From Amylostereum areolatum (Eukaryota; Basidiomycota; Agaricomycetes; Russulales; Stereaceae), in the NCBI GenBank assembly GCA_012932865.1, contig SAXG01000128.1, forward strand, positions 1-64,000: a stretch of 64,000 nucleotides of DNA, in the 5' to 3' direction. The notes under the pieces are model-generated. The model was not told the origin of the DNA. It did not search any database and worked only from the letters and a program-made list of their open reading frames with translations. A program made the translations under genes and the position numbers. Position 1 is the first letter of the stretch, and each line of letters opens with the position of its first letter. Shown in pieces: positions 6,269-64,000 of the stretch.

Positions 6269-6688
6269 TGTCAGAAACGCAGTTTATGAGACCGATGAAC
6301 CGCCTAAGTCGCGACGATGGGAGGAGCGAGAAGAAAATAGATTCGAGAGTGCCGGGGTCTAGGGTAGTGCAACATGCGCTGCAGTACCGTATGACGAGAT
6401 GGACAGTCTGAGGAAAAGGGAAAAGGGATACTGTCCTTATATACAAGTGGGAACGATGGTGCGATGCGATGCGATAGTGGTGCGAGCGGGGGGAACAATA
6501 AGAAAGGAGTCATGGGGAGGAGGACGGAAGTCCGGAGCAATGATGTCATAGATAAGGATGCGGAACACCGTTCGGAAGTCCGGGCAATGACGTCTTTGGA
6601 GCATGTGATGCAAAGGAAAGTCATGTGCCGTGATGCGTCGCGTGTACAAGGTCTGCAAACAAAGAAAGAAATGGAGCGATCCGTGACA
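6269..6688 (-). repeat. 3' LTR of gypsy copy 1
   Basis: 420 bp, TGTCAGAAAC...CCGTGACA on the plus strand, about 98% identical to 12943-13362. The pol reading frame runs into it and stops at 6621. Confidence 0.95.
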
Positions 6689-9600
6689 TTACCCCCCCTT
6701 TAAGACGTGCTTTCGCCTGGAGCGCGATGTCATCTGCAAGGGTGGATGCGAGAAAATCGTCAAAGGAGATGCCGAGGGAACGCACAGGGCAGGGCGCATT
6801 TGGATGGCGCTTGTGGAAAGCGTCAATCATGTCGGTAACCTTTGAGAGCGACGAACGTGGGAGCCAGGTGTTTTCGGAGTCAGGATAGCCGGCCCACTTG
6901 ACGAGGTACTGAATACCTTTCTTGTTACGAGTTGGTTTAGAGTCGACAATGTCTTCAACGTCGTATTCTTCTTCATCGTCAATGAGGTCTGGTGGCGGCT
7001 GTTCATAATTTGGCCCGTGAGCGGCTGTCTCCTTGTACGCGGTGAGCAGCGAGGCATGGAAGACTGGATGGATTCGCCACGTCTTCGGCAGCTTCAAGCG
7101 GTAGTTGACTGGGCTGATGACGTCAATGATTTCGAAGGGTCCAAATCGTTTGGCAGCAAGCTTAGCTTTCGGTCTCGTCGTCTTCAGATTTTTGCCTTCT
7201 AGCCATACTTTGTCTCCGACGGCAAACTGCGTTGATTCGCTGACCGTGTCGCCATTGTAGTGCTTCATCAAGTCTGATGTGAGGGCAAGGCTGGCCTTGA
7301 TCTCCTGTCGGACTTCTTCAAGTTGACGGAGGCGTTCTTCAACTGCGGGGACCTTTGAGGACGGGTTTACGGATGGGTACATTTTCGGGAGGAAGCCGTA
7401 GAGGACTTCAACGGGAGCCTTTCCAGTAGCTGCATGGGTGCGAGAGTTGTGAGAAAACTCGAAGAAGGGCAACCACTTCACCCAGTCGTCTTGACGGTAG
7501 TTGCAGAATACTCGCAGAAACTGCTCGAGGTTCTGGTTCTCGCGTTCGGTTTGGCCGTCTGTCTGTGGGTGATACGCTGTGCTGAGGGCGGACTTGATCC
7601 CGAGCTTCTTGTTGAGTGTACGCATCACCTGTCCAGCAAATTGGGGTCCGCGATCCGAGATGATCTTGTCTGCTAAGCCGTAGTGTCGGTATACCTTATC
7701 GAAGAGAATGTCGGCCGTGCCATCGCTGGTGATCTTCGTTGTACATGGGGTGGTAACCACCATCTTGGTGAGGCGATCGACCACGACATTGACGGCGTTA
7801 TAGCCTTCGCAGTCAGGGAGTTCGACAATGAAGTCGGTGGAGATGACGCCAAATGGTCAATCGGGTACTTCGTTTGGGATCATGTCGACGTGGGGTCGGC
7901 TGCTCTGTGTCTTCGTCGACTGGCAGGTTGCGCATCCTGCTACAAAGTCGCGGACAAAGACAGACATGCCAGGCCACCAATATTCACGACTCACAAGCTC
8001 GTAAGTCTTGAAGCGACCGGGGTGTCCAGCCAGGGGCGATTCATGGTACATTTTGACAATGTCGCGTCGCAACTCATCATCTGTAGGGACATATACCTTT
8101 CCTCTGAACAGGACCAGGCCTTCTTCGTAGTTCCACTCTTGAAGGTTCTTGACGAGTGTACGTGGTCCGTTTCGTAAGATGGCGTCCAGGGCTTGAACGC
8201 CCTCGATGTCCTTGGTTTTGCAGTCGCGGATACGTCGTCGGAGTTCGACATCACCGAGGGAGGTTACCGCTCCTGGCCTTGTTGCGCGTACTTGGAAGTA
8301 CTTGGGGTCAAGCAAGACGCGCTCCTTGTTGTCGTTTTCAACACCATCCTTGTGATCGGGTTGTCGAGACATTGGATCCGGGCGGTGGGAAATTCCTGGT
8401 TTATGAACGAGCGAGAAGTCAAATCGAGTGAGGAATAGAGCCCAACGTGCCTGTCGGCGGCTCAGCTTCTGTGCCGTCTTGAAGTGCTCCAGGTTCTTGT
8501 GATCTGTCCGGATTTCGACGGTGTCGGGGGCGCCTTCGAGGTAGTGGCGCCAGGCTTCAAGCGCACGGATGATCGCAAGTAGCTCCTTGTCGTAGATGTC
8601 GTAGATGTGTTCCGGTTCCGATAGGGCCTTGGACAGATACGCCACCGGATGCCAGTGGTCGTCGTCGCTTTTCTGCGAGAGTATACCTCCGGTAGCAAAG
8701 TCCGAGGCATCGACTTCAACGAGGTAAGGTTTCTTCCGGTCAGGCATGACCAGGACGGGGGAGGAGGTAAACACAGCTTTTAGTGCGTCAAACACAGTTT
8801 GGCAGTCTGTCGACCAGTTCCACGTACAGTCCTTCTTTGTCAGGTCAAACAGGGGTTGTGCGACCTTGGAGAAGTCCTTGATGAAATGTCGGTAGAAGTT
8901 GCCAAAGCCGAGGAAGGATTGCACGTCTTTGACCGTTCGTGGTGTTGGCCAGTCCTGAATACCTGCTACCTTGACGGGGTCCATAGCGATCTTGTCGTGC
9001 GAGATGATGAGTCCAAGGTATTCAACGGAGTCTTGCTCGAAGACACATTTCTCCGGTTTGGGGAAGAGGTCGTTGTCTTGCAAATGTTGCAGAACCTGCC
9101 GCACTATGGCACGGTGTTCGTCCATGGTGCAAGTGAACACCAAGATGTCGTCCATGTAGATAATGACCTTGCCCAAGTTGATGAGATCCTTGAACAGTTC
9201 ATTCATCATTGCCTGAAACGTTGCAGGGGAGTTCATAAGCCCGAAAAACATCACCGTAGGTTCAAAGAGACCATGATTCGTCTTGAACGCAGCCTTCCAC
9301 TTGTTGCCTTCCTTGATGCGGACATTGTTGTAGCCCCAGCGAACATCCATCTTGGAGAAGATCTTTGCACCTTTGAGACGGTCGACAATTTCAGAGATCA
9401 GTGGCAAGGGGTATTCATTCTTGACAGTGCCCTTGTTTAATTCTCGATAGTCCTGTACGGGACGCAGCTTTCCATCTTTTTTCTTCACAAAGAAGAACGG
9501 ACTCGCCTGAGGTGACTTCGATGGGCGGATATAGCCCTTCTTCAGGTGGTCGTCGAGGAAGGTGTCGAGTTCGATCTGCTCGGAAGGTGAGAGGGGGTAG

Positions 9601-10595
9601 ATTTTGCACGGTTTGGGTTCAAAGCCGTCTTTCATGTCGATAGCATGGTCCCATGGTCGTCGGTCAGGCAGTCGCTCGGAGGTTTTTTTGTCGAATACAG
9701 GCGCGAAGTCGCGGTACGGTGGGGGGACTAAGTCTTCAAAGGTTTGCGGGTGTGCGTTCTCTTTTGAATGCTCTGCAAGCTCTTGCGCTTTTGTAAAGCC
9801 CGCGCGGATGGGTATTGCATCTGGATTAGGACCACCGGTTTCAGGGAGAATTCCGGCGCGGCGTAGTTCATTGATCTCCCAGTCTCGGAATACCATGGGC
9901 CGCTCGTCGTCGTCTTCAGTGAAGAGTCGTGCGGGTAGAGGGGAGCGATGGACCGTACGGACGCGAACACCTTTGACTCTGCGTGCAGGAATAACATAAG
10001 TGGGGACTGGGGTCCAGGACACATATGTCGGCTCTGGGAAGGGATCGTCCAGAACGAGAGGTGTCCTCGGGGTTTTACCTGCTTCAACCTTACACTGTGA
10101 TTGGGCCAATGATGGTCTCCGTAGCTTGGTTGCGAGGTTTGTCACAGGAGGTTTGGACAGAGTGCATGAGGGGGGGCAGCGGAGCATGTCAACACGGTCT
10201 CGTTGCCAGTCTATGGTGGGGTTGTGCTCATCGAGCCAGTCTGTTCCAAGGATCATGTCATGATCGCCGATGTCGGTGATGAAGAACTCAGCTTCTTCCT
10301 CATGGTACGCCTTTGAATCTTGCGAGTATATCCGGATCCGCTGGGTCGTTGTGTCGCGTACCCAGCCCATGATGTTCTCGGTGCCGTCCACATTACGCAT
10401 GGGGAACGGGTTTTCTAGTTTTCTTGTGGTGAGCTTCTTGCGTTCGGCGAAGCTTCGGTTCAGGATAATTCCTTCTGCGCCGCTATCAAGCAGCGCTTCT
10501 GCGTCGATTTCTCTTTTGGTAACTCGTCCGATCAGCTTGACTTTGAGCGTGATCGATGGTGTTTGCCTGTTCTTGGTGACAGTAGACAGATACAA
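6621..10595 (-). pseudogene. Gypsy copy 1 pol: protease, RT, RNase H, integrase, chromodomain
   Basis: A polyprotein frame broken once, by TGA at 7857-7859. The first part (912 codons, 10595-7857) has a retropepsin-like 'LLDSGAEG'. RT follows with '[15 protein letters not shown]' and the catalytic YMDD (about 9147-9158). RNase H has 'DASDFATGG', and the HHCC zinc module of integrase ends with 'CATCQ'. After the TGA the frame resumes in the integrase core (D from 'STDF', 'SDRGPQF', E from 'QTERENQN') and the GPY/F module ('FGPFEIIDVI'). A C-terminal chromodomain follows ('QYLVKWAGYPDSENTWLP'). The homologous position in gypsy copy 2 (39385) reads CGA, so this stop is a single C-to-T change at a CpG. 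The family inserts cDNA into chromatin, and chromodomains of chromoviruses are thought to direct targeting. The last codons lie inside the 3' LTR. Non-functional in cis as it stands. Confidence 0.95.
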
Positions 10596-10708
10596 ACACG
10601 GGGGATACGACTACTCACAGGTATGCATGGATGATAATACAGCGAAACGATTCGACGATGATACCAAAAGTCCTTTGCCTCCACCAGATGACACGACTGG
10701 GGGGCATT

Positions 10709-11734
10709 TCAAAAATCCTGCGATTCCAGGATGTCCTTCAACAGCGCTACTGCCTGCTCCTTGCCTTCCGTGTCCAGATCCTTCAGCTGGCGAGTGATCG
10801 CCGCAATGGTTTTGGATGGGTTGGGAGCTGCTTTTGCAGTGGACGGAGCCGTGTTCGTCGGCAGGGGAGGGGCCTTGGACCCAGTCTCTACTGCGCCCAC
10901 CTGTCGCGCGCTCGAGTCGCGGTTGGGGAAGTCGCGAGAGACGTGACCGGCTTGTCGACACATGAAGCACTTGCCTTCGCGCATCATCTTTGCGCGCTCG
11001 TCGTCCGTCAGCTTTGCAGGGCGGGTCGAGGTGTTGGTGAAGGCGCCGACTCGGCGCGACGAGGAGTCGTTGGTCGAACTGTTCGAGGTGAGCGCGACAG
11101 CCCCCTTGGACTGACTGCTCTTCCTCTCCGGGTTCTCTTCGAGCCACTGGTGGTTGATGCGGCGGGCGCGCTCCTTCCACTCCGCGAGCTTGGTGGGGAA
11201 TGGGTACGACCGGGCCACCTGCTTGCCGAGGTCACGCTGAAGTCCCTTCTTGAAAAAGTGGATTAGCGCCTCGTCGTCGTACGCTGACATGGTTGCCAGC
11301 ATCTCAAACTCGGTGATAAAGTCAGTGACGTCCCGGGTAGTCATTGCGAGCTCGTTGATCTTACGCTGAGCCTCTATCTTCGGATCGACGGGCATGAAGT
11401 CTTTGCCAAACCTCTCGAAGAGCTCTTTGTAGGAGCTATAGTGGAGTGTTGGGGGCGTGGGGTCGAGGGTTTCGGCGTCTTCCTTCTCGTCTTCGTCGGC
11501 GAAGAGTTCCATGCGGTGATGCGTGGCCCAGGCTTTCGCCGTGTCGTCCTCCATCAGGCTGAGGAGGAGCATCATCTTGGCGTCATCTGTGGCATAAACA
11601 TCCTTGTTAACGCGCAGGAACATGCGGAGCTCGAGGGAGAACCGGAGGGTGTCGCGTCTATCGCCTTTGAATGGCTTTGGCTTGGGGCCGATCTCCCGCT
11701 TGGAGACGGCAGGTTTGGATTCGGCGTCGGACAT
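10709..11734 (-). CDS. Gypsy copy 1 Gag
   Basis: 341 codons from the ATG at 11734. The N-terminal half has the Ty3/gypsy Gag pattern ('PKPFKGDRRDTLRFSLELR', 'WATHHRMELF'). A CCHC-type knuckle follows near residue 256, 'CFMCRQAGHVSRDF', in which the fourth ligand (Cys) is replaced by Phe; copy 2 keeps the Cys. Gag would package the RNA in cytoplasmic particles, and this change should weaken nucleic-acid binding. The same frame is open upstream to a TAG at 12221-12223 without any Met, so the start could lie further upstream or translation may be continuous with the leader ORF. The pol frame begins about 110 nt downstream in another frame. Confidence 0.85.
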   Translation of the reverse strand: MSDAESKPAVSKREIGPKPKPFKGDRRDTLRFSLELRMFLRVNKDVYATDDAKMMLLLSLMEDDTAKAWATHHRMELFADEDEKEDAETLDPTPPTLHYSSYKELFERFGKDFMPVDPKIEAQRKINELAMTTRDVTDFITEFEMLATMSAYDDEALIHFFKKGLQRDLGKQVARSYPFPTKLAEWKERARRINHQWLEENPERKSSQSKGAVALTSNSSTNDSSSRRVGAFTNTSTRPAKLTDDERAKMMREGKCFMCRQAGHVSRDFPNRDSSARQVGAVETGSKAPPLPTNTAPSTAKAAPNPSKTIAAITRQLKDLDTEGKEQAVALLKDILESQDF

Positions 11735-12942
11735 CTTGTCGAAGGGGAGGGGGACGGTGAGGGATTGGGCGAGTTCTTGATCAAGGCGGCGTAGGGTTTC
11801 TCGTCGGCGTTCTTCTGCTTCTTCAACTTTGTCCTCAACTTGTTTTGCGACAAGGAAGTCGGCGGGGGTGAGGAATTGCTGGTTATGATGCCACGACCAG
11901 TGATCTTGGACGGGACTGAACGAAGTGGGCTGCCACTCAACTACTGATCGTCCTGGGGTTCCGTTCTTGTTCCATCTATAGGCGTACCACTTCCCAGTTG
12001 TGTCGTTGTGGTTGATCCCTTCTGGGACTTCGATTACAGTACGTCGACGGGGTGGGGGCGAGTTGGTCGGAGGGGGGTTCAGGAAGCGCTGTAGAATGTC
12101 CGCAGCGGTGGCAAAATCCGATTCTTCGACGTAGGGTTGTTCGTCGCGGTCGTCGAAGTACCAGTCTCGACGTTGCCAGTTTGGTTCGTCGTGCAGCCAA
12201 CGTACGGATTCCTTAGTCTGCTACGAGGTGAGGATATAGTATTCTTCGGGACAGTAGTCTCGAAAAACGCCTGGGGGGAGGTTCGGAGTGGGGGGACGAG
12301 GGGCTGTGGAGGACGTGATGATGGTCTAGAAGAAGTCCGCCGCGATGGGGCGACGGCCGAGGAGTTTCTTGGTGAGGTAGCCAGCTTTTACTGCCTGGCG
12401 GATCTTATGTTCGTGGTGGCGGCGACGAAGGGTCTTACCCTTGATGGTGGGACGGAGGACTGGTGGCGGGGTGGATTCGGGGGTCCGGCGGTTAAACTGG
12501 GAGACGGAGGTGAAACTGGTTTGGAGGATCGGGTTGGGGGCGTCCTGGATGAGGTATGTGTGGTAGGTGGGGGCGTGGAGGGTGAATTCAAGGCGTTCGA
12601 GATCTACGTTGATGCACGTAGTGATCCAGACGTATAGGGCGAGGACAACAGTACCGTGATCCTTGTGCCACCTCCACTCGAAGATGCGGAAGTTGAGGCC
12701 GTGCGCGGTCCAGGGATCTTTCTTGCAGAGGTTCTGTACGGGGATGAGGCAGTTGACGGTGACGGCGTCGGACCAAGGGTAGGGGAGTGGTGCGTCGTCG
12801 CGGGGGGTGCTCGGCTTTCCGTTGAACGGGAGGAAAACCGGTGCATTCGGGAGGTCCGTGGTGGGAGTTTTTAACGTCGTAGAGACGGCAGAGGTAGATG
12901 GAGAGAGGGGTGCGAGGTAGGCGTAGGGGTAGACTGTCCAGG
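11735..12942 (-). pseudogene. Gag leader ORF (ORF0), same frame as gag
   Basis: Between the 5' LTR and gag the gag frame stays open except for two TAG codons. The upstream piece (12942 to 12329, entered from the LTR) ends in 'PIAADFF' and the TAG at 12326-12328. That TAG is conserved in gypsy copy 2 (43750-43752). The downstream piece is aromatic-rich ('DWYFDDRDEQPYVEES', 'GKWYAYRWNKNG', 'QDHWSWHHNQQFL') and runs into Gag. It is broken by TAG at 12221-12223, where copy 2 has CAG. I recognise no domain; it may be an extended Gag N terminus. The conserved TAG raises the possibility of a separate leader protein or stop-codon readthrough. Confidence 0.6.
12931..12940 (-). promoter_or_regulatory. 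Self-complementary primer-binding site of gypsy copy 1
   Basis: On the minus strand the 10 nt TGGACAGTCT start 2 nt inside the 5' LTR. They are the exact complement of AGACTGTCCA in the same LTR (13074-13083), which lies at the predicted mRNA 5' end. This is the Tf1/sushi self-priming layout rather than tRNA priming. Confidence 0.75.
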
Positions 12943-13362
12943 TGTCAGAAACGCAGTTTATGAGACCGATGAACCGCCTAAGTCGCAACAATGGGAGGAG
13001 CGAGAAGAAAATAGATTCGAGAGTGCCGGGGTCTAGGGTAGTGCAACATGCGCTACAGTACCGTATGACAAGATGGACAGTCTGAGGAAAAGGGAAAAGG
13101 GATACTGTCCTTATATACAAGTGGGAACGATGGTGCGATGCGATGCAATAGTGGTGCGAGCGGGGGGAACAATAAGAAAGGAGTCATGGGGAGGAGGATG
13201 GAAGTCCGGAGCAATGATGTCATAGATAAGGATGCGGAACACCATTCGGAAGTCCGGGCAATGACGTCTTTGGAGCATGTGATGCGAAGGAAAGTCATGT
13301 GCCGTGATGCGTCGCGTGTACAAGGTCTGCAAACGAAGAAAGAAATGGAGCGATCCGTGACA
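12943..13362 (-). repeat. 5' LTR of gypsy copy 1
   Basis: 420 bp. Contains the promoter: a minus-strand TATATAAGG (13109-13117) whose first base is 34 nt upstream of AGACTGTCCA (13083). The U3/R boundary is inferred to lie there. Confidence 0.93.
13109..13117 (-). promoter_or_regulatory. TATA box in gypsy LTR
   Basis: TATATAAGG on the minus strand, correctly placed for transcription starting near 13083. The equivalent box occurs in the solo LTR at 35582-35590 (plus strand) with the same 34-nt spacing. Confidence 0.65.
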
Positions 13363-54631: not shown

Positions 54632-55082
54632 TGTTGAAGATATTCGTTTATGTCTGATTTCTACGCCTTTATTCTGTTCTATCTCCCTTCTATTCGCGTC
54701 TATTCCGCTCCATTCACCCTATTATCATCTAATTCCGCGTCTATACCCTCACATGCCCTCTCCACTTCACCCACTGTTCGCTATTGTACTGTACTTACTG
54801 TAGTTCAGCCTGAGCTAGCTTCCCTAGCTTCAGTTTCGAGTTAGTTACCGCTTTAGGTCGATTCTCGGCTTATTCCGAGTTTCCTCCCACGCTCCATGGC
54901 CTCTACCTGCAGCCACACGCGTCTGCTCCTCCTCAGTCGCTCATTCTGTGCTGCAGGTATGCCCTTTGCTCGTTTCTGTCTTGTTTCTCAGTCGCTCATT
55001 CTGTGCTGCAGCAATCCACTGTTTGTGTCAGTTCTGAGCGTCCCTAGCTAGTTGGCTAGCCCCTTCAACTGCGACTTCAACA
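54632..55082 (+). repeat. 5' LTR of copia element
   Basis: TGTTGAAGATATT...GCGACTTCAACA, 451 bp. Contains an internal repeat of CAGTCGCTCATTCTGTGCTG (54935 and 54990). Confidence 0.96.
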
Positions 55083-55094
55083 GGTTATGGGCCC
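55083..55094 (+). promoter_or_regulatory. Copia primer-binding site (internal initiator tRNA-Met type)
   Basis: GGTTATGGGCCC directly follows the LTR. It is complementary to the anticodon-loop region of initiator tRNA-Met, as in Drosophila copia, which primes from a half-tRNA. Confidence 0.8.
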
Positions 55095-55789
55095 TGCGCT
55101 CTAGCCAACATCCATCGCTTTTATCTCGCCTCACAGCACCCCCCTCGCCTCGTCCTTCTACACACCTCTCCTACCATCCCTAGAGGCCCCAGCCCTCGAG
55201 TTTCAAGTCGAACGACCCATCCGTCGCCTCCCAACGCCATCCCCATCCTCCAGGGCGCGCATTTCGCAACATCAAGCGCGCACGCAACGCCCCTTCATCC
55301 GTTCGCCTCGCCCTTGCATATTCCGCATCTACTACTCCCTATCCAACTTCGTGCCAAGCCCCAAGGCCGTCGCTTTTGTCGCTGCGCGTCCACAGCCTGT
55401 GACGCTTCCTCCTCCTCCTCCCACAAACATCAAAGGCGCCCTCAGCGCCCCTTCAACCGTTTGCTACCTCGCTTCGCGTCAGCCCTCCCTACCACCCTAC
55501 CTACCCCCTCGCCAAACGCGGTAGCCGTCGCTGAAGCCGTTCGCCCTCAGGAGCTCGTTGTTTGCAGGAGGCTGTTTCGAGAAATTTTCACCTTGGGATC
55601 GGACGAGTGTAGCTTCCCATCGCGTTGTGCTATCGGTACGCGCTCTTCAGGCCTCCATCTAGACCATCCACCCTCCCCATCGCCGTCGTACCCGCCCCCA
55701 TCGCCCTATCCCATCGCCCTCGGCGCCCCCTCGAACCTCTGCTCGTCCAAATCGTCGCTTTTTGCGTATATCCTCTCCAATTCCTCATT

Positions 55790-57702
55790 ATGTCCGACTC
55801 TATCCCCAAAATCGACGCTCTCACCGGCCAAAACTACAAGGACTGGTCGAACGAGGTTCTGGCCTGGCTCCAGACCAAGGGCTGGGACGCTGTAGTGCTG
55901 GGGGAGACGTCCAAGCCGGCGGATACTGCTGCTGCCGCCCTCAAGGAGTACACCTCGATCTGCTCCAAGGCTGGGGGTGCCATCTACCTCCTCATCTCCA
56001 AGGACCAGCGAGGTCCTGTGGACGACCTTAGGCGCGACGCCCCTGCTATGTGGACGAAGCTCGAGGCGCTGCACGTCAAGAAGGCGCCTGGCGCGCGCTT
56101 CAACGCGTATGACGACCTCTTCAATGTCCGCAAGAAGGAGGACGAGTCCCTGCTCGCTATGGCGACGCGAGTCGACGATGCTATGCGTCGCATTCGTTCC
56201 CTTCGCCCTGCGTCTCTCACCCTCGAGGAGCTCGACAAGGAGCTCACCACCATGGCGTACATCCGCGCCCTCCCCTCGGAGTACTCCTCCTTCGTCTCCT
56301 CCCTCCTCCTGCTCGAGAAGCTCGACCCCGACAGCGTCAAGGACGCGTTTGTGCGCGAGGAGACCAACAGGGAGCGCAACCCCGAGTTCTTCAAGCCGGA
56401 CGCTTCGTCTGCGCTCAGTGCGTCGTCGTCTGGCGCATCTGGCAAGGCCAAGGGGCAGTCCTCGCGTCCACGTCTCACTTGCGCGTTCTGCAAGAAGAGC
56501 GGGCACGAGGAGAAGACCTGCTATCAGAAGCAGATCAAGGACCTGCGTTCTCGCCTTGGGGACAAGGCCAACGCCGCTTCGTCGTCGTCTGACGGCTTCA
56601 ATCCTGCTGGCGAACACGCTGGCAGCGCTGCATCCGCAAGTGTCGCTCCTTCCGACCCCCTCTCGCCGCTGCAGCTCGATGCTGACGTCGATTGGAATGC
56701 AGACACCGGCGCCACGTCTCATATGACCCCGCATCGCCACTTCTTCGCCTCCTACCGTCCCCTTCGCACGCCCATTCGCCTCGCAGACGGAAAGACGGTG
56801 TACAGTGCAGGAGTCGGTTCAGTGGTGTTCAATCCGGTTGTAGCAGGAAAGGCGCAGGGTGCCGTCGAGTTTACTAGAGTCCTCCATGTTCCCCATCTTC
56901 GCAATAATCTCCTCTCTGTCCTCTACCTTGCGAAGCATAAGGCGTTCGTCGTCACCATCAAGGGGAGCCGCGTCTCCTTCGCTAAGGACGGCGCTGTGTG
57001 GTTCACTGCAACGATCAACGATGCGAACACCGCCTATCTCGATGGTTCCACCTCTACAGCGTCGCACTACGCCCTATCCGCCGCGCTCGCCGCCTCTACG
57101 CCGCTCGACGCGTCCCTATGGCACCGCCGCCTGGCTCACTTCAACCACGCTGGTCTCCAGCGCATAGTGCGCGAGAATCTCGTCACCGGTCTCGTCTTCA
57201 ACTCGTTAGAGAAGCCCGACCCTATCTGCGAGCCCTGCCTCGCTGGCAAGATGCATGCCGACCCGTTCCCCTCCTCTGCCACCGTCTACACAAAGCGCCT
57301 CGCCCTCGTCCACTCTGACCTGCACGGTCCGCTTCCAGTCCGCACCGCCTCTGGCTATCGCTACTGGGTCCTCTACATCGACGCCGCCTCGCGTTTCTAC
57401 GCCGTCTACCTGCTTCGCAAGAAGTCGGACCAGTACGAGGCGTTCAAGGACTTCAAAGCGTGGGCCGAGAAGCAGACAGGCGAGAAGCTGCTCGCGCTGC
57501 AGGACGACAAGGGGGGCGAGTACATGGGGCGCAACATGGACGAGTTCTGTTCGCTGCACGGGATCGAGCGCCGTCATACGACGCGCAATCGCCCTCAGCA
57601 GAACGGCGTGGCGGAGCGTGCAAATCGCACCATTGAGGAGGGTGTCACCGCGATGCTTGCGGAGTCCGGCCTGCCTGCGTCTTTCTGGGGAGAAGCGCTC
57701 AG
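55790..57702 (+). CDS. Copia Gag-protease-integrase (part 1 of polyprotein)
   Basis: I choose the ATG at 55790 (Met-Ser-Asp-Ser-Ile-Pro-Lys), which starts the conserved Gag; the frame is open upstream to 55625 but those codons look non-coding. Gag has 'LTGQNYKDWSNEVLAWL'. The zinc knuckle is 'CAFCKKSGHEEKTC' (residues 231-244). Protease has Asp-Thr-Gly-Ala at about residue 305. Integrase has the HHCC module from His445 ('LWHRRLAHFNHAGL' to 'CEPCLAG'), then 'LVHSDLHGPLP', 'LQDDKGGEY' and 'NGVAERANR'. The frame is cut by the TRIM at 57703 and would otherwise run into 58215. Joined, the ORF is 1,436 codons with no stop. Confidence 0.95.
57698..57702. repeat. TRIM target duplication, left copy (CTCAG)
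   Basis: CTCAG repeated at 58210-58214; perfect 5-bp duplication as made by LTR-element integrases. Confidence 0.95.
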
Positions 57703-57791
57703 TGTTGAAATAAGGCTAAGCCCTGGCCTGTTGCACACAATCAGAGCTCGGTGATATTCTCTATATCAACTACCAACCTGTTCCCACTATC

Positions 57792-57865
57792 GGACAGGTA
57801 GCTCAGTTGGTTAGAGCACCCTTCTAGAATATGGGAGGTCCTGGGTTCAATCCCCGGCCAGTCCA
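57792..57865 (+). tRNA. tRNA-like sequence in TRIM 5' LTR
   Basis: 74 nt folding as a tRNA: acceptor GGACAGG/CCAGTCC (one A-A mismatch), D stem GCTC/GAGC, anticodon stem CCCTT/ATGGG (one mismatch), 7-nt loop CTAGAAT, 5-nt variable loop, T stem CTGGG/CCCGG with loop TTCAATC. A box TAGCTCAGTTGG and B box GGTTCAATCC both match the Pol III consensus. The anticodon position reads AGA (serine), yet the short variable loop is not that of a serine tRNA, so it is unlikely to be a working decoder. Confidence 0.85.
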
Positions 57866-57911
57866 CTTTGTGTTTCACTTTATGACTGAAGGTCCCTCTG
57901 TGTTTTCAACA

Positions 57912-57924
57912 TGGTAGCAGCACC
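57912..57924 (+). promoter_or_regulatory. TRIM primer-binding site
   Basis: TGGTAGCAGCACC directly after the LTR; the TGGTAGC start is typical of sites complementary to the 3' end of initiator tRNA-Met. Differs from the internal priming site of the copia element. Confidence 0.75.
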
Positions 57925-57987
57925 CGCCTTCATGATTACTGTTGGGCACAAGTGGCGAGTGCCTAAGATCACATCAGGCCTGGTCTT

Positions 57988-57996
57988 ACGGGGGTG
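57988..57996 (+). promoter_or_regulatory. TRIM polypurine tract
   Basis: ACGGGGGTG abuts the 3' LTR; nearly the same as the copia tract CACGGGGGAG at 60622-60631. Confidence 0.75.
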
Positions 57997-58085
57997 TGTT
58001 GAAATAAGGCTAAGCCCTGGCCTGTTGCACACAATCAGAGCTCGGTGATATTCTCTATATCAACTACCAACCTGTTCCCACTATC

Positions 58086-58163
58086 GGACAGGTAGCTCAG
58101 TTGGTTAGAGCACCCTTCTAGAATATGGGAGGTCCTGGGTTCAATCCCCCCCCGGCCAGTCCA
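58086..58163 (+). tRNA. tRNA-like sequence in TRIM 3' LTR
   Basis: As 57792-57865 but with four extra C in the T stem (CAATCCCCCCCC), which disrupts its 3' half; A and B boxes are intact. Confidence 0.8.
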
Positions 58164-58214
58164 CTTTGTGTTTCACTTTATGACTGAAGGTCCCTCTGTG
58201 TTTTCAACACTCAG

Positions 58215-60612
58215 TGCCTACATCCACGTCCGCAACCGCCTGCCCACCGCCGCCATCAAGGCGCACACCACGCCCTTCGAGGTCTGGCACGGGTCCAAGC
58301 CGGATGTGAGTCGTCTGCGCGTGTGGGGATGCACCGCATACGTCCATATCCAGCGCGACAAGCGCAAGGGCCTGCAGCCGCACATGGTGAAGGCCGCCTT
58401 CATCGGGTATCCGGAGGGGTACAAAGGCTGGAAGTTCTGGGACCCTATAGCGAAGAAGGTCATCATTTGCGAGCGCGCCGACTTTGATGAGCGCGATTTC
58501 CCTCGCTCCAGGCTCAACAAGCCGCTCCTGCCCTCGCCTTCCGCTCCCCTCTTCCCTCCTCCGCCTCCATCGGAGCCTGCTCCCTCTCAGCCGGTGCTGG
58601 ATGCCGGGGGAGACGACGACTCGTCCTCTGCTGAGCAAGACGAGCCTGATCTGCCTCCAGCTCCGCCTGCTGATGAGCATGATCAGGATGCGGCCGATCC
58701 CGCTCCTGCGCCGCCTGCAGCCGATCCTGCACCTCCCTCTCCACATGCGGGTCCTTCGCGGCCTGCTCCTCGAGGGAGGAAGCGCGCCGCCTCGCCCACC
58801 GGTCCTCTGCGCCGTAGCACGCGCGACGCCGTGGTCAAGGCGCGATCGAACAGCTGGCAGCCTCAACCAGTGCCCTCCAAGGCGAAAGTGCGCGAGCCGC
58901 TTCCTGCAGTCGAATCCGACGAGGAGGACGATGCTCACAGCGACTCTCCTGAGCCGTGGGCGAATGACGACGTCTACTCTGCGCAGGAGACGCCTGAGGC
59001 CGCCTTTGCCATCCACACCGCGTTGGAGACTGCCCTTCTATCCGCAGACGGCGAGCCGCTCTCCTACAGGCAGGCTATGCAGCGTCCAGACGCGGAGATG
59101 TGGCTTGCAGCGTGCAGAGAGGAGCTCGACGCGCATGCAGCCAATGGCACCTGGTCTATCGCTTCCCTTCCCCCTGGCGCGCACGCCGTCGCATCGCGCT
59201 GGGTCTTCAAGGTCAAGCGCAAGGAGGACGGCTCCATCGAGCGCTACAAGGCGCGCGTCGTCGCGAAGGGCTTTTCCCAGCGTCCTGGCTTCGACTACTT
59301 CGAGACCTTCGCTCCCACTGCCAAGTTCCAGGCCATCCGCACTGTCCTCGCCCTCGCCGCCGTCGAGGATCTCCACCTGCGCTCCATCGACATCTCCCAT
59401 GCCTTCATCAATGGCGACCTCGATGCGGAGGTCTACATGAAGCAGCCTGAAGGCTTCGAGGAGGGTCCTCCTGGCGCGGTCTGCAAGCTGCAGAAGTCGA
59501 TCTACGGCCTCAAGCAGGCCGCTCGCCTGTGGAAGATCAAGCTGATGGAGGTCCTGTGCGACAAGATGGGATTCCGCTGCATCTACAGCGACGCGTCAAT
59601 CTACGTGCTCCAGCGCGACGCTGTGCGCGTTCTCCTCCCTGTCTTCGTCGACGACGGCACCCTGGCGTCGAATTCGGAGCCTGTTCTCGACGAGATCATC
59701 GCCACTCTTCGCACGCACTTCAAGCTGCGAGACCTCGGCCCCACCTCCTTCCTCCTTGGCATCCACATCACTCGAGACCGCTCCCTTCGCACCCTCTTCC
59801 TCTCCCAGCGCCAGTACATCATCGACACGCTTGCGCGCTACAATCACGCCGACTGCCACCCTGTCACCACGCCTATGCTTCCTGGCTCGCGTCTGACGAA
59901 GGCCATGTCGCCCCAGAACGCTTCTGAGCGCGAATTCATGCAAAAGGTGCCCTATGGCAGCGCCGTCGGCTCCCTGCTCTACATCGCGACTGCGACCCGT
60001 CCAGACATCGCCTACACTGTCTCCAATCTCTGCCGCTTCATTTCGGACCCAGGTCCTCAGCATTGGCGCGCCGTCCAGCATCTGTTCAAGTACCTCCAGG
60101 GCACGAAGGACTTGAAGCTCGTGTACAGGCCGACCGACGACTCCGAGCTGTTCACCACCTTCACAGACTCGGACCACGGCGGAAACGTCGACAATGGCCG
60201 CTCCACAGGCGGGTATCTCGTCCGCATTGGTTCTGGCGCTGTCAGCTGGAGCTCTCGCCTCCAATCGCTCGTCGCACAGTCGACGACCGAGGCGGAGTAC
60301 ATTGCTGCCGTCGAGGCTGGCAAGGAGATCGTCTGGATGCGCAACCTGCTCTCTGAGTTTGGCTACACAGTCGAGGGCGCTTCGCTCCTGTACTCGGACA
60401 ATCAGTCGTCTATCAACGTCTCAAAGAATCCCGAGCATCATGGACGCATGAAGCACCTCGACCTGCGCTTCTACTGGCTGCGAGACGAAGTGGAGGCCGG
60501 CCGGATTGTTCTCAAGTTTGTGGGGACAAACGAGATGCCGGCCGACATCCTGACGAAGGCGCTGCCTCGTGAGCGCGTTGTGCGCTGCAGGGAGATGATG
60601 GGACTCGAGTAG
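58215..60612 (+). CDS. Copia RT-RNase H (part 2 of polyprotein)
   Basis: Continues part 1 in frame (Leu-Ser-Ala-Tyr-Ile-His) once the TRIM and one CTCAG copy are removed. Starts in the integrase C terminus ('RVWGCTAYVHI'), then a Pro/Asp-rich linker, then RT. RT has 'ASRWVFKVKRKEDGSIERYK', 'FAPTAKFQAIRTVLALAA', 'KSIYGLKQAARLW' and the catalytic FVDD (59644-59655). RNase H has 'FTDSDHGGN', 'QSTTEAEYIAA', 'LLYSDNQSSI' and 'HLDLRFYWLRDEV'. All catalytic acids are present. Stop TAG at 60610-60612, then the polypurine tract and LTR. Without the TRIM this would be a full-length polyprotein. Confidence 0.95.
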
Positions 60613-60631
60613 GCGTCTCATCACGGGGGAG

Positions 60632-61082
60632 TGTTGAAGATATTCGTTTATGTCTGATTTCTACGCCTTTATTCTGTTCTATCTCCCTTCTATTCGCGTC
60701 TATTCCGCTCCATTCACCCTATTATCATCTAATTCCGCGTCTATACCCTCACATGCCCTCTCCACTTCACCCACTGTTCGCTATTGTACTGTACTTACTG
60801 TAGTTCAGCCTGAGCTAGCTTCCCTAGCTTCAGTTTCGAGTTAGTTACCGCTTTAGGTCGATTCTCGGCTTATTCCGAGTTTCCTCCCACGCTCCATGGC
60901 CTCTACCTGCAGCCACACGCGTCTGCTCCTCCTCAGTCGCTCATTCTGTGCTGCAGGTATGCCCTTTGCTCGTTTCTGTCTTGTTTCTCAGTCGCTCATT
61001 CTGTGCTGCAGCAATCCACTGTTTGTGTCAGTTCTGAGCGTCCCTAGCTAGTTGGCTAGCCCCTTCAACTGCGACTTCAACA
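60632..61082 (+). repeat. 3' LTR of copia element
   Basis: Identical by eye to 54632-55082. Confidence 0.96.
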
Positions 61083-62080
61083 CCATCGCGACAGATCTGC
61101 ACCATGGTTAGCCTTCCTAATAAGACGGTACAATGTCTATGAGCCTTACCTTGACATTACGAGCGATTCAGATTCGCGACAACGGCTTCAACTTCTCCTT
61201 CCAAGCTGACCTGGGTTTGAGACCGTTCGGGAGCTGTAGGCGGGCCCAACGCATCACAGATGGCACCCATGTATCCATGAACTCTCCTCCTACCTCCCGC
61301 ACATAGCGAGGGATGCTCCCCACCTCGCATGGTCGGACATCGCGAGAACAGGTATCCTTAGCGTGTAGGAGAACATATCCGTCGCCGATGGCCACAGCCC
61401 CTCGAGGAAGCCCAGTTGGTGATGGTTCTGGTGCAATGTCCGGAGCCATGACTTTGAGGGCATTCACCTGAGCTCGTCGGAGACCACGCTGGGATAAGTT
61501 TGCATATGGGTTTGAAGGCTGCTTAACTTCCTGTCCAAGGTTCCCAATCGTTCGTTCCATCGGCCACTATGATAACAGGCCCAGAGGCCCACAACGCATT
61601 GTCTTGGGAGCTGCATGAGGGGTTTGGTGTACGCTTGGACGGCAAAAGTGGAGACAGTCCGCCCGGCGCTAGTAATACAGGGTCTCGAAATCCTCCGAGA
61701 ATTGAATGAGTGCCTTGTGTGCCGCAACAAGTTCCACCTTCGTGATTTTTTCCAGATAGAGTAGACGGATGCCGAAGACCAACTGACAGAAGTTTTTCCA
61801 GTACATCTCAGGGAGGATGGCCTCCAAGAGAGCGGGGAAGCATCCAAATACGAGGAGAAGGAACTCCCAAGCTTTATAACCACTGTTTATTTTTTTATGC
61901 AGGATTGTGCGGGGGTCGATCGAAACAGCCAGGGAGGTAAGCCGCTGCTAGCTGTATAAAACGACCAAGGTCCTTCCATATGTCTCCAGTCAAAATGAAC
62001 CATGGCCAATCTGCTTTGCTGTCGGTCGGCTTGCACTCGATGGTTCCACGAAACAGACCGATCATGAGATCAGTCAGGTT

Positions 62081-62289
62081 TGTTGAAAACACAGAGGGAC
62101 CTTCAGTCATAAAGTGAAACACAAAGTGGACTGGCCGGGGATTGAACCCAGGACCTCCCATATTCTAGAAGGGTGCTCTAACCAACTGAGCTACCTGTCC
62201 GATAGTGGGAACAGGTTGGTAGTTGATATAGAGAATATCACCGAGCTCTGATTGTGTGCAACAGGCCAGGGCTTAGCCTTATTTCAACA
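62081..62289 (-). mobile_element. Solo TRIM LTR
   Basis: 209 bp, minus orientation, ends TGTTGAAAA/TTTCAACA, perfect duplication AGGTT (62076-62080, 62290-62294). Arises from LTR-LTR recombination of a full TRIM. Confidence 0.93.
62127..62200 (-). tRNA. tRNA-like sequence in solo TRIM LTR
   Basis: Same 74-nt sequence as 57792-57865, minus strand. Confidence 0.83.
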
Positions 62290-62714
62290 AGGTTTAGTGA
62301 GACAAGGTGCATGAGATCGGCTGGAAAGGCGGCTGGGATCCCAAGAAAACGTGGTAGACCAGTGAAGATACTTGATTTTGCTATTCCGGTTGCAAGTTGG
62401 CATTGCCTGTATTCAGCTGGAGTGCGTGATGCAGCAACATACGCGACATTGGCCTTATACCTGAGAATGTACACCCGTCAGTTTCATCAACCCCGGCAAA
62501 TCCTGAGTACATCGCACCTGCTAGTACACTTGTCCGACAATATTGAAGGTAGTGCACGCAACAATATATCATCATGATCAGACCCAGGTACCGCATAGTT
62601 CTCTGGCTTCAGACAGGCAGGATAATGTTGAAATAAGGCTAAGCCCTGGCCTGTTGCACACAATCAGAGCTCGGTGATATTCTCTATATCAACTACCAAC
62701 CTGTTCCCACTATC

Positions 62715-62788
62715 GGACAGGTAGCTCAGTTGGTTAGAGCACCCTTCTAGAATATGGGAGGTCCTGGGTTCAATCCCCGGCCAGTCCA
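62715..62788 (+). tRNA. tRNA-like sequence, array LTR 1
   Basis: As 57792-57865; A and B boxes intact. Confidence 0.83.
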
Positions 62789-63008
62789 CTTTGTGTTTCA
62801 CTTTATGACTGAAGGTCCCTCTGTGTTTTCAACATGGTAGCAGCACCCGCCTTCATGATTACTGTTGGGCACAAGTGGCGAGTGCCTAAGATCACATCAG
62901 GCCTGGTCTTACGGGGGTGTGTTGAAATAAGGCTAAGCCCTGGCCTGTTGCACACAATCAGAGCTCGGTGATATTCTCTATATCAACTACCAACCTGTTC
63001 CCACTATC

Positions 63009-63082
63009 GGACAGGTAGCTCAGTTGGTTAGAGCACCCTTCTAGAATATGGGAGGTCCTGGGTTCAATCCCCGGCCAGTCCA
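63009..63082 (+). tRNA. tRNA-like sequence, array LTR 2
   Basis: As 57792-57865; A and B boxes intact. Confidence 0.83.
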
Positions 63083-63212
63083 CTTTGTGTTTCACTTTAT
63101 GACTGAAGGTCCCTCTGTGTTTTTGTTGAAATAAGGCTAAGCCCTGGCCTGTTGCACACAATCAGAGCTCGGTGATATTCTCTATATCAACTACCAACCT
63201 GTTCCCACTATC

Positions 63213-63286
63213 GGACAGGTAGCTCAGTTGGTTAGAGCACCCTTCTAGAATATGGGAGGTCCTGGGTTCAATCCCCGGCCAGTCCA
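63213..63286 (+). tRNA. tRNA-like sequence, array LTR 3
   Basis: As 57792-57865; A and B boxes intact. Confidence 0.83.
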
Positions 63287-63506
63287 CTTTGTGTTTCACT
63301 TTATGACTGAAGGTCCCTCTGTGTTTTCAACATGGTAGCAGCACCCGCCTTCATGATTACTGTTGGGCACAAGTGGCGAGTGCCTAAGATCACATCAGGC
63401 CTGGTCTTACGGGGGTGTGTTGAAATAAGGCTAAGCCCTGGCCTGTTGCACACAATCAGAGCTCGGTGATATTCTCTATATCAACTACCAACCTGTTCCC
63501 ACTATC

Positions 63507-63580
63507 GGACAGGTAGCTCAGTTGGTTAGAGCACCCTTCTAGAATATGGGAGGTCCTGGGTTCAATCCCCGGCCAGTCCA
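63507..63580 (+). tRNA. tRNA-like sequence, array LTR 4
   Basis: As 57792-57865; A and B boxes intact. Confidence 0.83.
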
Positions 63581-64000
63581 CTTTGTGTTTCACTTTATGA
63601 CTGAAGGTCCCTCTGTGTTTTCAACAGTTTTCAACAGATAATACTGCGGTTGCCCGTCTTTGTGACATCCAGGCACAAGACAGTAGAAGCGGCATCCGTA
63701 TTGACCGCTGTGGCCAACCATGCCATCGAGCAGAGCCATTGCGGGAGTGTCGGCTGTCGCAAACATCAAAAGGGGACGGTCCGTAATCACTGTGTCCCGA
63801 GCAGCGTCCCGTGGTGGCTGCAGGTGGCAGTTGCCCAAATGGGTTGGTGGCGCCGCAGTGGCTGTTGTTTATCAATGTTTTGTGCCAGCTATCTCTGAGA
63901 GGGTCACATTCAAACTTTCAAAATCTAAACAGGCTCAAAAAGGAAAATCGAGATAAGACAAAGATAAGACAAAGATAACTGTCTAATCTAATCTTCATAT

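Follow-up and report, generated by a model that had tools for sequence, protein, structure and literature searches.

Helenus elements, as described by Kojima in 2024, are TRIMs that combine tRNA-derived sequence in the LTRs with a primer-binding site (PBS), a polypurine tract (PPT) and target site duplications (TSDs), which are 5 bp long in the fungal members; the group TRIMp3 was proposed for them (PMC10886601). The fungal members are probably mobilised by Copia elements. Kojima lists rusts and three Agaricomycetes as fungal hosts, and among the latter is Amylostereum areolatum, a species that appears in the text of that paper but is missing from its Table 1. In many Helenus elements the anticodon conflicts with the body of the tRNA part, which is probably not a working tRNA. 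Most fungal families are primed by a tRNA anticodon loop, and some are reported to use initiator tRNA-Met by its 3' end (PMC10886601). Two comparable systems carry 5S rRNA sequence: Cassandra, a plant TRIM with this Pol III gene sequence in its LTRs, and Ajax of nemerteans, a TRIM with part of a 5S rRNA as presumed Pol III promoter in the LTR and with a 5-bp TSD (PMC10886601).

The element studied here is located in A. areolatum, a wood-decay fungus of the Russulales, within a 64-kb stretch of DNA that is called the window throughout. It resembles Helenus in being a small LTR element without genes, with tRNA-derived A and B boxes in the LTR, a PBS and a PPT; as in Helenus, it also has 5-bp TSDs and solo LTRs, its anticodon conflicts with the tRNA body, and its host is a fungus. 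Its predicted primer is the 3' end of initiator tRNA-Met, in contrast to the anticodon loop of most fungal Helenus. From Cassandra and Ajax it differs by the tRNA-like rather than 5S-derived sequence in its LTRs, and from Ajax also by its host, which is not an animal. The element is thus a Helenus, a known kind of TRIM, and Kojima had listed this species among the hosts. It very probably belongs to the family already reported from A. areolatum, judging from the species and not from a comparison of sequences. The initial annotation, which had recognised a fungal analogue of Cassandra from the paired LTRs, PBS, PPT, TSD and tRNA-like A and B boxes in the LTRs, was right; its suggestion that a fungal family of this kind might not yet be described fails, since Kojima had described Helenus in fungi (PMC10886601). 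The comparison with other basidiomycetes that it called for rests here on published accounts. Taken as a whole, we hold with high confidence that this is a Helenus TRIM, probably already reported, that would be transcribed by Pol III, primed by initiator tRNA-Met and mobilised by enzymes acting in trans, most likely those of a Copia family here named Copia-A.

Structure of the window element and of its tRNA-like part

The TRIM at 57703-58209 is 507 bp long, with two LTRs around an 85-bp interior and CTCAG on both sides (Table 1). It has the features of a TRIM, being non-coding and shorter than ~1 kb with two LTRs, and its PBS adjoins the 5' LTR and its PPT the 3' LTR. The TG...CA ends, interior length, primer site, PPT and perfect TSD of the initial annotation are all found in the sequence at 57698-58214. 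The LTR length of 209 bp given there applies to the 5' LTR; in the 3' LTR, the T-arm of the tRNA-like part contains four additional C, which bring this LTR to 213 bp. On the sense strand, runs of four or more T are confined in this copy to the TTTT near each LTR end, at 57903-57906 and 58201-58204.

Table 1. Positions in the window of the Helenus element, its parts, further copies of its family and the surrounding Copia-A element
Feature	Position	Strand	Basis
TSD CTCAG, 5' copy	57698..57702	.	sequence
5' LTR, 209 bp, TGTTGAA...TTCAACA	57703..57911	+	sequence; commonest LTR form
TATAT motif 26-30 nt before tRNA-like nt 1; may serve as TATA element for Pol III or Pol II	57762..57766	+	inferred, sequence only
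tRNA-like part of 5' LTR, 74 nt, anticodon AGA	57792..57865	+	Rfam tRNA 56.1 bits (E 2e-9)
A box TAGCTCAGTTGG	57799..57810	+	sequence
B box GGTTCAATCCC	57844..57854	+	sequence
TTTT, possible weak Pol III terminator	57903..57906	+	inferred; sole sense-strand T run >=4 in 5' LTR
PBS TGGTAGCAGCACC, complementary to 3' 13 nt (CCA included) of host initiator tRNA-Met	57912..57924	+	
Interior, 85 bp, too short for transposition proteins	57912..57996	+	
PPT ACGGGGGTG	57988..57996	+	
3' LTR, 213 bp, four extra C in T-arm of tRNA-like part	57997..58209	+	
tRNA-like part of 3' LTR, T-arm disturbed	58086..58158 (ARAGORN and Rfam coordinates)	+	Rfam 38.4 bits
TSD CTCAG, 3' copy	58210..58214	.	sequence
Solo LTR, same family, TSD AGGTT (62076-62080 / 62290-62294)	62081..62289	-	
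Copy A, 3' LTR interrupted by copy B; TSD GATAA (62621-62625 / 63637-63641)	62626..63636	+	
Copy B, 503 bp, inside 3' LTR of copy A; TSD GTTTT (63119-63123 / 63627-63631)	63124..63626	+	
Copia-A element interrupted by the window Helenus copy; LTRs 54632-55082 and 60632-61082; PBS GTTATGGGCCC; PPT ACGGGGGAG (60623-60631); candidate helper	54632..61082	+	

The window contains seven LTRs of this family, one of them split by a nested insertion. Its GC content is 0.52-0.56. At 6269-13362 of the window is a Gypsy element whose LTRs are 97.9% identical and which has reverse transcriptase and integrase domains and a chromodomain.

A tRNA-like fold had been noted in every LTR, and both programs agree with it: Rfam RF00005 was found in 7/7 LTRs above the gathering threshold (E 2e-9 to 2e-4), and ARAGORN likewise called seven tRNAs, as tRNA-Ser(AGA). 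The match in the 3' LTR of the 507-bp copy is weaker than that in its 5' LTR. Tract and boxes lie in both LTRs, as in Helenus. The tRNA-like part fits the cloverleaf with 19 of 21 canonical stem pairs, the mismatches being A-A in the acceptor and T-T in the anticodon stem. The best RNAfold structure has four arms and a shifted register of the anticodon stem (-25.8 kcal/mol), and the standard cloverleaf register has -18.6 kcal/mol.

The description of this tract as a complete tRNA-like gene therefore holds for its fold, but probably not in the sense of a working tRNA. The anticodon AGA is that of Ser, while the variable loop AGGTC belongs to a class I body, and this conflict between a Ser anticodon and a body lacking the long variable arm makes a working tRNA unlikely. 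A functional tRNA-Ser gene does not fit, since the long variable arm of the host Ser tRNAs is missing; the host Ser-AGA genes are longer and quite different. The closest of seven host tRNA sequences compared was Ile-AAT, with 55 identities in 79 aligned columns.

Comparison of 130 near-full LTRs showed no lower variation within the tRNA-like part, where 25 variants fall on 74 nt, the 135 nt outside it having 42. The recent copies therefore show no selection on this part.

The family in the A. areolatum genome

The A. areolatum assembly (57,130,172 bp, 57.1 Mb, in 182 contigs) was searched with patterns and profiles that scored the best candidates only. A pattern for the LTR start (21 bases, up to two mismatches) had 168 matches, and the reversed pattern had none, which excludes chance. 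The exact 13-base PBS is present at 56 places, and elements of this family account for 55 of these; at the other, C117:151468, there is no LTR of the family. Near matches to the PBS were covered by a junction pattern, found at 57 places: 52 are exact and five have one mismatch, C94:408201 and C143:112919 being known from the pattern match only.

Ninety-one element rows were examined, 80 of them distinct by their 12-base flanks; the LTR places covered number 100 of the 168, so that solo LTRs are under-sampled. Exactly 503 bp is the length of 42 of the 55 two-LTR rows. Exact 5-bp TSDs, as described for the fungal members of Helenus, flank 36 of the 49 distinct two-LTR copies and 14 of the 27 distinct solo LTRs, and base counts revealed no obvious motif in these 50 TSD sequences. 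Eight of the 13 two-LTR copies without an exact TSD are shorter than 503 bp, through truncation, rearrangement or the edge of the stretch examined. One more is the nested copy A, which has GATAA outside the nest, and the remaining four are 503 bp long, three of them sharing a flank with another copy.

The tRNA-like promoter and the ARAGORN call of tRNA-Ser(AGA) could also be expected of a tRNA-derived SINE, or of tandem tRNA genes mistaken for a TRIM. This reading has a negligible probability, given the paired LTRs with TG/CA ends, the PBS to initiator tRNA-Met, the PPT, the solo LTRs with TSDs, and the 5-bp TSDs of most distinct two-LTR copies, which end in no A-rich tail. The initial annotation had stated that its proposal would fall if genome copies lacked paired LTRs, primer site and 5-bp duplications or ended in tails like those of SINEs, and among the 91 element rows this was not found as a rule. 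In these rows there is no A-rich or simple-repeat tail, the exact TSDs are 5 bp long and LTRs are present, so that a SINE is refuted.

The family appears to have been active until very recently, since 35 copies that differ in their flanks each measure 503 bp and have two LTRs that do not deviate from the reference, an identity that assembly polishing can increase by making near-identical repeats more alike. Thirty distinct LTR sequences were found among the 130 near-full LTRs, the commonest accounting for 86 of them (duplicated segments counted).

Three full-length copies without TSD (C56:506669-507171, C134:74414-74916 and C139:1154663-1155165) have one flank or both in common with other copies, which is the pattern expected of ectopic recombination between elements. 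At C1:1627942-1651333, Copia reverse transcriptase (RT) matches repeat at steps of 11,327 bp (three times), and the Helenus copies between them repeat at an equal step (twice); this repeat is either a tandem duplication or an assembly artefact.

Both the recurrent 11,327-bp unit and the shared flanks of the three 503-bp copies are of the kind that would be left if the copies had spread by ectopic recombination and segmental duplication in repeat blocks, and not by retrotransposition. As an account of the family this is very improbable: 50 insertions with distinct flanks have exact 5-bp TSDs, including one into an LTR of the family itself.

Primer and transcription

A T-arm pattern had seven matches in the genome, six of which ARAGORN called initiator tRNA-Met genes. 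The surroundings are alike or nearly so in two pairs of these genes, leaving about four contexts. The genes begin AGCAGCATGG, and the six matches (some contexts duplicated) end GTGCTGCTA. Four end GAGGTGCTGCTA, which with the added CCA pairs with the PBS over 13 nt, and the remaining two end GGAGTGCTGCTA, with a PBS match of 12 nt. From this pairing, the primer would most simply be the 3' end of initiator tRNA-Met, which is a primer type seen in fungal Helenus, where it is reported for some families.

The arrangement of these sequences suggests a course of transcription by Pol III. The A and B boxes would recruit TFIIIC and Pol III, and the start would lie just upstream of the tRNA-like part of the 5' LTR. 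The polymerase would sometimes pass the weak TTTT at the end of this LTR and stop at the TTTT of the 3' LTR, producing an RNA of ~0.4 kb in which the tRNA-like stretch would be placed within the repeated R region. First-strand synthesis would then be primed by the 3' end of initiator tRNA-Met.

Some of the observations could be accommodated differently, with a genomic RNA of this Helenus TRIM made by Pol II and a tRNA-like part that is a passenger, or whose sole role is to bind TFIIIC or to mark a chromatin boundary. The TATAT upstream of the tRNA-like part would agree with this, as would the copy-to-copy variation, which is no lower inside that part, and the fact that a Pol III RNA must pass the TTTT of the 5' LTR before it reaches the interior. 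We regard transcription by Pol II as possible but less likely, since a strict A box is retained in 28 and a strict B box in 25 of the 30 distinct LTR sequences, and the short element, with its T runs confined to the vicinity of the LTR ends, fits Pol III. Cassandra, moreover, is described as transcribed by Pol III (PMC10886601).

Copia-A as candidate helper and the distribution of the copies

The window Helenus copy is inserted in the coding region of a Copia-A element, whose two LTRs are 451 bp each and identical. The genome has many Copia-A reading frames that run for 1495 aa uninterrupted by a stop. Copia-A and the Helenus copies have the LTR tips TGTTGAA/TTCAACA in common, and their PPTs match at eight of nine bases (ACGGGGGAG versus ACGGGGGTG). 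The Copia-A PBS, GTTATGGGCCC, corresponds to the anticodon arm of initiator tRNA-Met and differs from that of Helenus; it was found in three Copia elements that were read, the one in the window and two more. No LTR pair was detected around a fourth Copia RT region examined. The search for an autonomous partner by a common exact 13-base PBS found none among the 56 genome places.

The distance of retrotransposon matches to full Helenus copies (the 55 primer-site places, with copies in duplicated segments counted separately) differs sharply between groups. Copia groups A, B and C, which were set by RVT_2 bit score and not by a tree, comprise 70 of the 130 Copia RT matches (45, 19 and 6); a full copy is found within 20 kb for 33 of the 45 Copia-A matches, but for 0/19 and 0/6 in the other two groups (0/25 together). 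The other 60 matches, mostly partial, are evenly divided between 30 inside this distance and 30 beyond it. Only two of 150 Gypsy matches, the best 150 of 935 candidates, lie within this distance.

The full copies are also close to each other: 49 of 55 have another within 20 kb, whereas 2000 random draws gave 2.0 on average and 10 at most (duplicated segments counted). Flanks were read for 46 of the 80 distinct insertions; 17 of these have Copia-A sequence on either side and one is placed within Copia-B, so that nesting accounts for part of the clustering.

Helenus and Copia-A copies are gathered in roughly one block per scaffold (C1, C34, C56, C94, C96, C98, C100, C139, C148 and others; 54632-63636 in the window). 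On C1, which is 3.10 Mb long, the block occupies 1.63-1.65 Mb. The pattern is less simple on some scaffolds: on C76 two places are separated by 221 kb, and there are gaps of 61-84 kb on C2, C94 and C165. This block-wise distribution of Helenus and Copia-A is possibly new, judging from a limited literature search and from its absence from the main text of PMC10886601.

A parallel is provided by Agaricus bisporus, which is a Helenus host too. A passage of PMC7473861 describes a Copia family of this species that is found nowhere but in the one large repeat cluster that each chromosome has, and this cluster is regarded there as the likely centromere. This family, Copia-28, is like Copia-A in forming one repeat cluster per chromosome and in its frequent nested insertion; it comes from another species and is likened to Copia-A by its distribution only, and Helenus is absent from section 8 of that paper (PMC7473861). 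One block per scaffold with Copia-A, together with the A. bisporus parallel, suggests that the blocks are candidate centromeres and that Copia-A is the likely helper of the window Helenus family.

The LTR tips, the eight matching PPT bases and the restricted distribution in common all point to Copia-A as the most likely source of reverse transcriptase and integrase, which would act on the Helenus RNA in trans. As a helper Copia-A is a candidate and not a proven one, because its PBS differs from that of Helenus and the exact 13-base PBS turned up in no other element.

These features can be combined into a broader model. At fission-yeast centromeres, tRNA genes serve as chromatin boundaries. In A. 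areolatum, the TRIM and a single Copia family would be confined to one block per chromosome, the centromere, with the Copia integrase inserting both. The TRIM would seed more than 100 TFIIIC-binding, tRNA-like sites in centromeric chromatin, where they might act as boundaries, and it would be primed from the end of the initiator tRNA opposite to that used by its helper. We offer this model tentatively, as one that is more probably wrong than right in its entirety. If the block distribution holds in a chromosome-level assembly, Helenus and Copia-A together would be a centromere marker for A. areolatum, and the distribution would make it possible to identify the helper of a Pol III TRIM. That of Cassandra is still unknown, according to Kojima (PMC10886601).

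Copia RT matches at constant spacing were observed at C41:4367-20016 (~3.73 kb), C148:185243-197992 (~4.00 kb) and C85:71284-84856 (~4.28 kb), which suggests tandem Copia arrays or an assembly artefact.

The family also has a consequence for annotation, since tRNA finders count Helenus LTRs as tRNA-Ser(AGA) genes. A passage of the A. areolatum genome paper gives 457 tRNA genes by tRNAscan-SE (PMC7227769). Set against the 168 LTR starts, and judging from these counts and not from the gene list, a large share of this number may therefore be Helenus LTRs.

The same series of tRNA matches was observed on several contigs (C85:835002-862536, C150:1378707-1400408, C151:237930-250954 and C87:328-5580). 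Two of these stretches, those on C87 and C85, were read and are A+T-rich. The recurring series may come from mitochondrial DNA, either lying in nuclear contigs or present as duplicated mitochondrial contigs.
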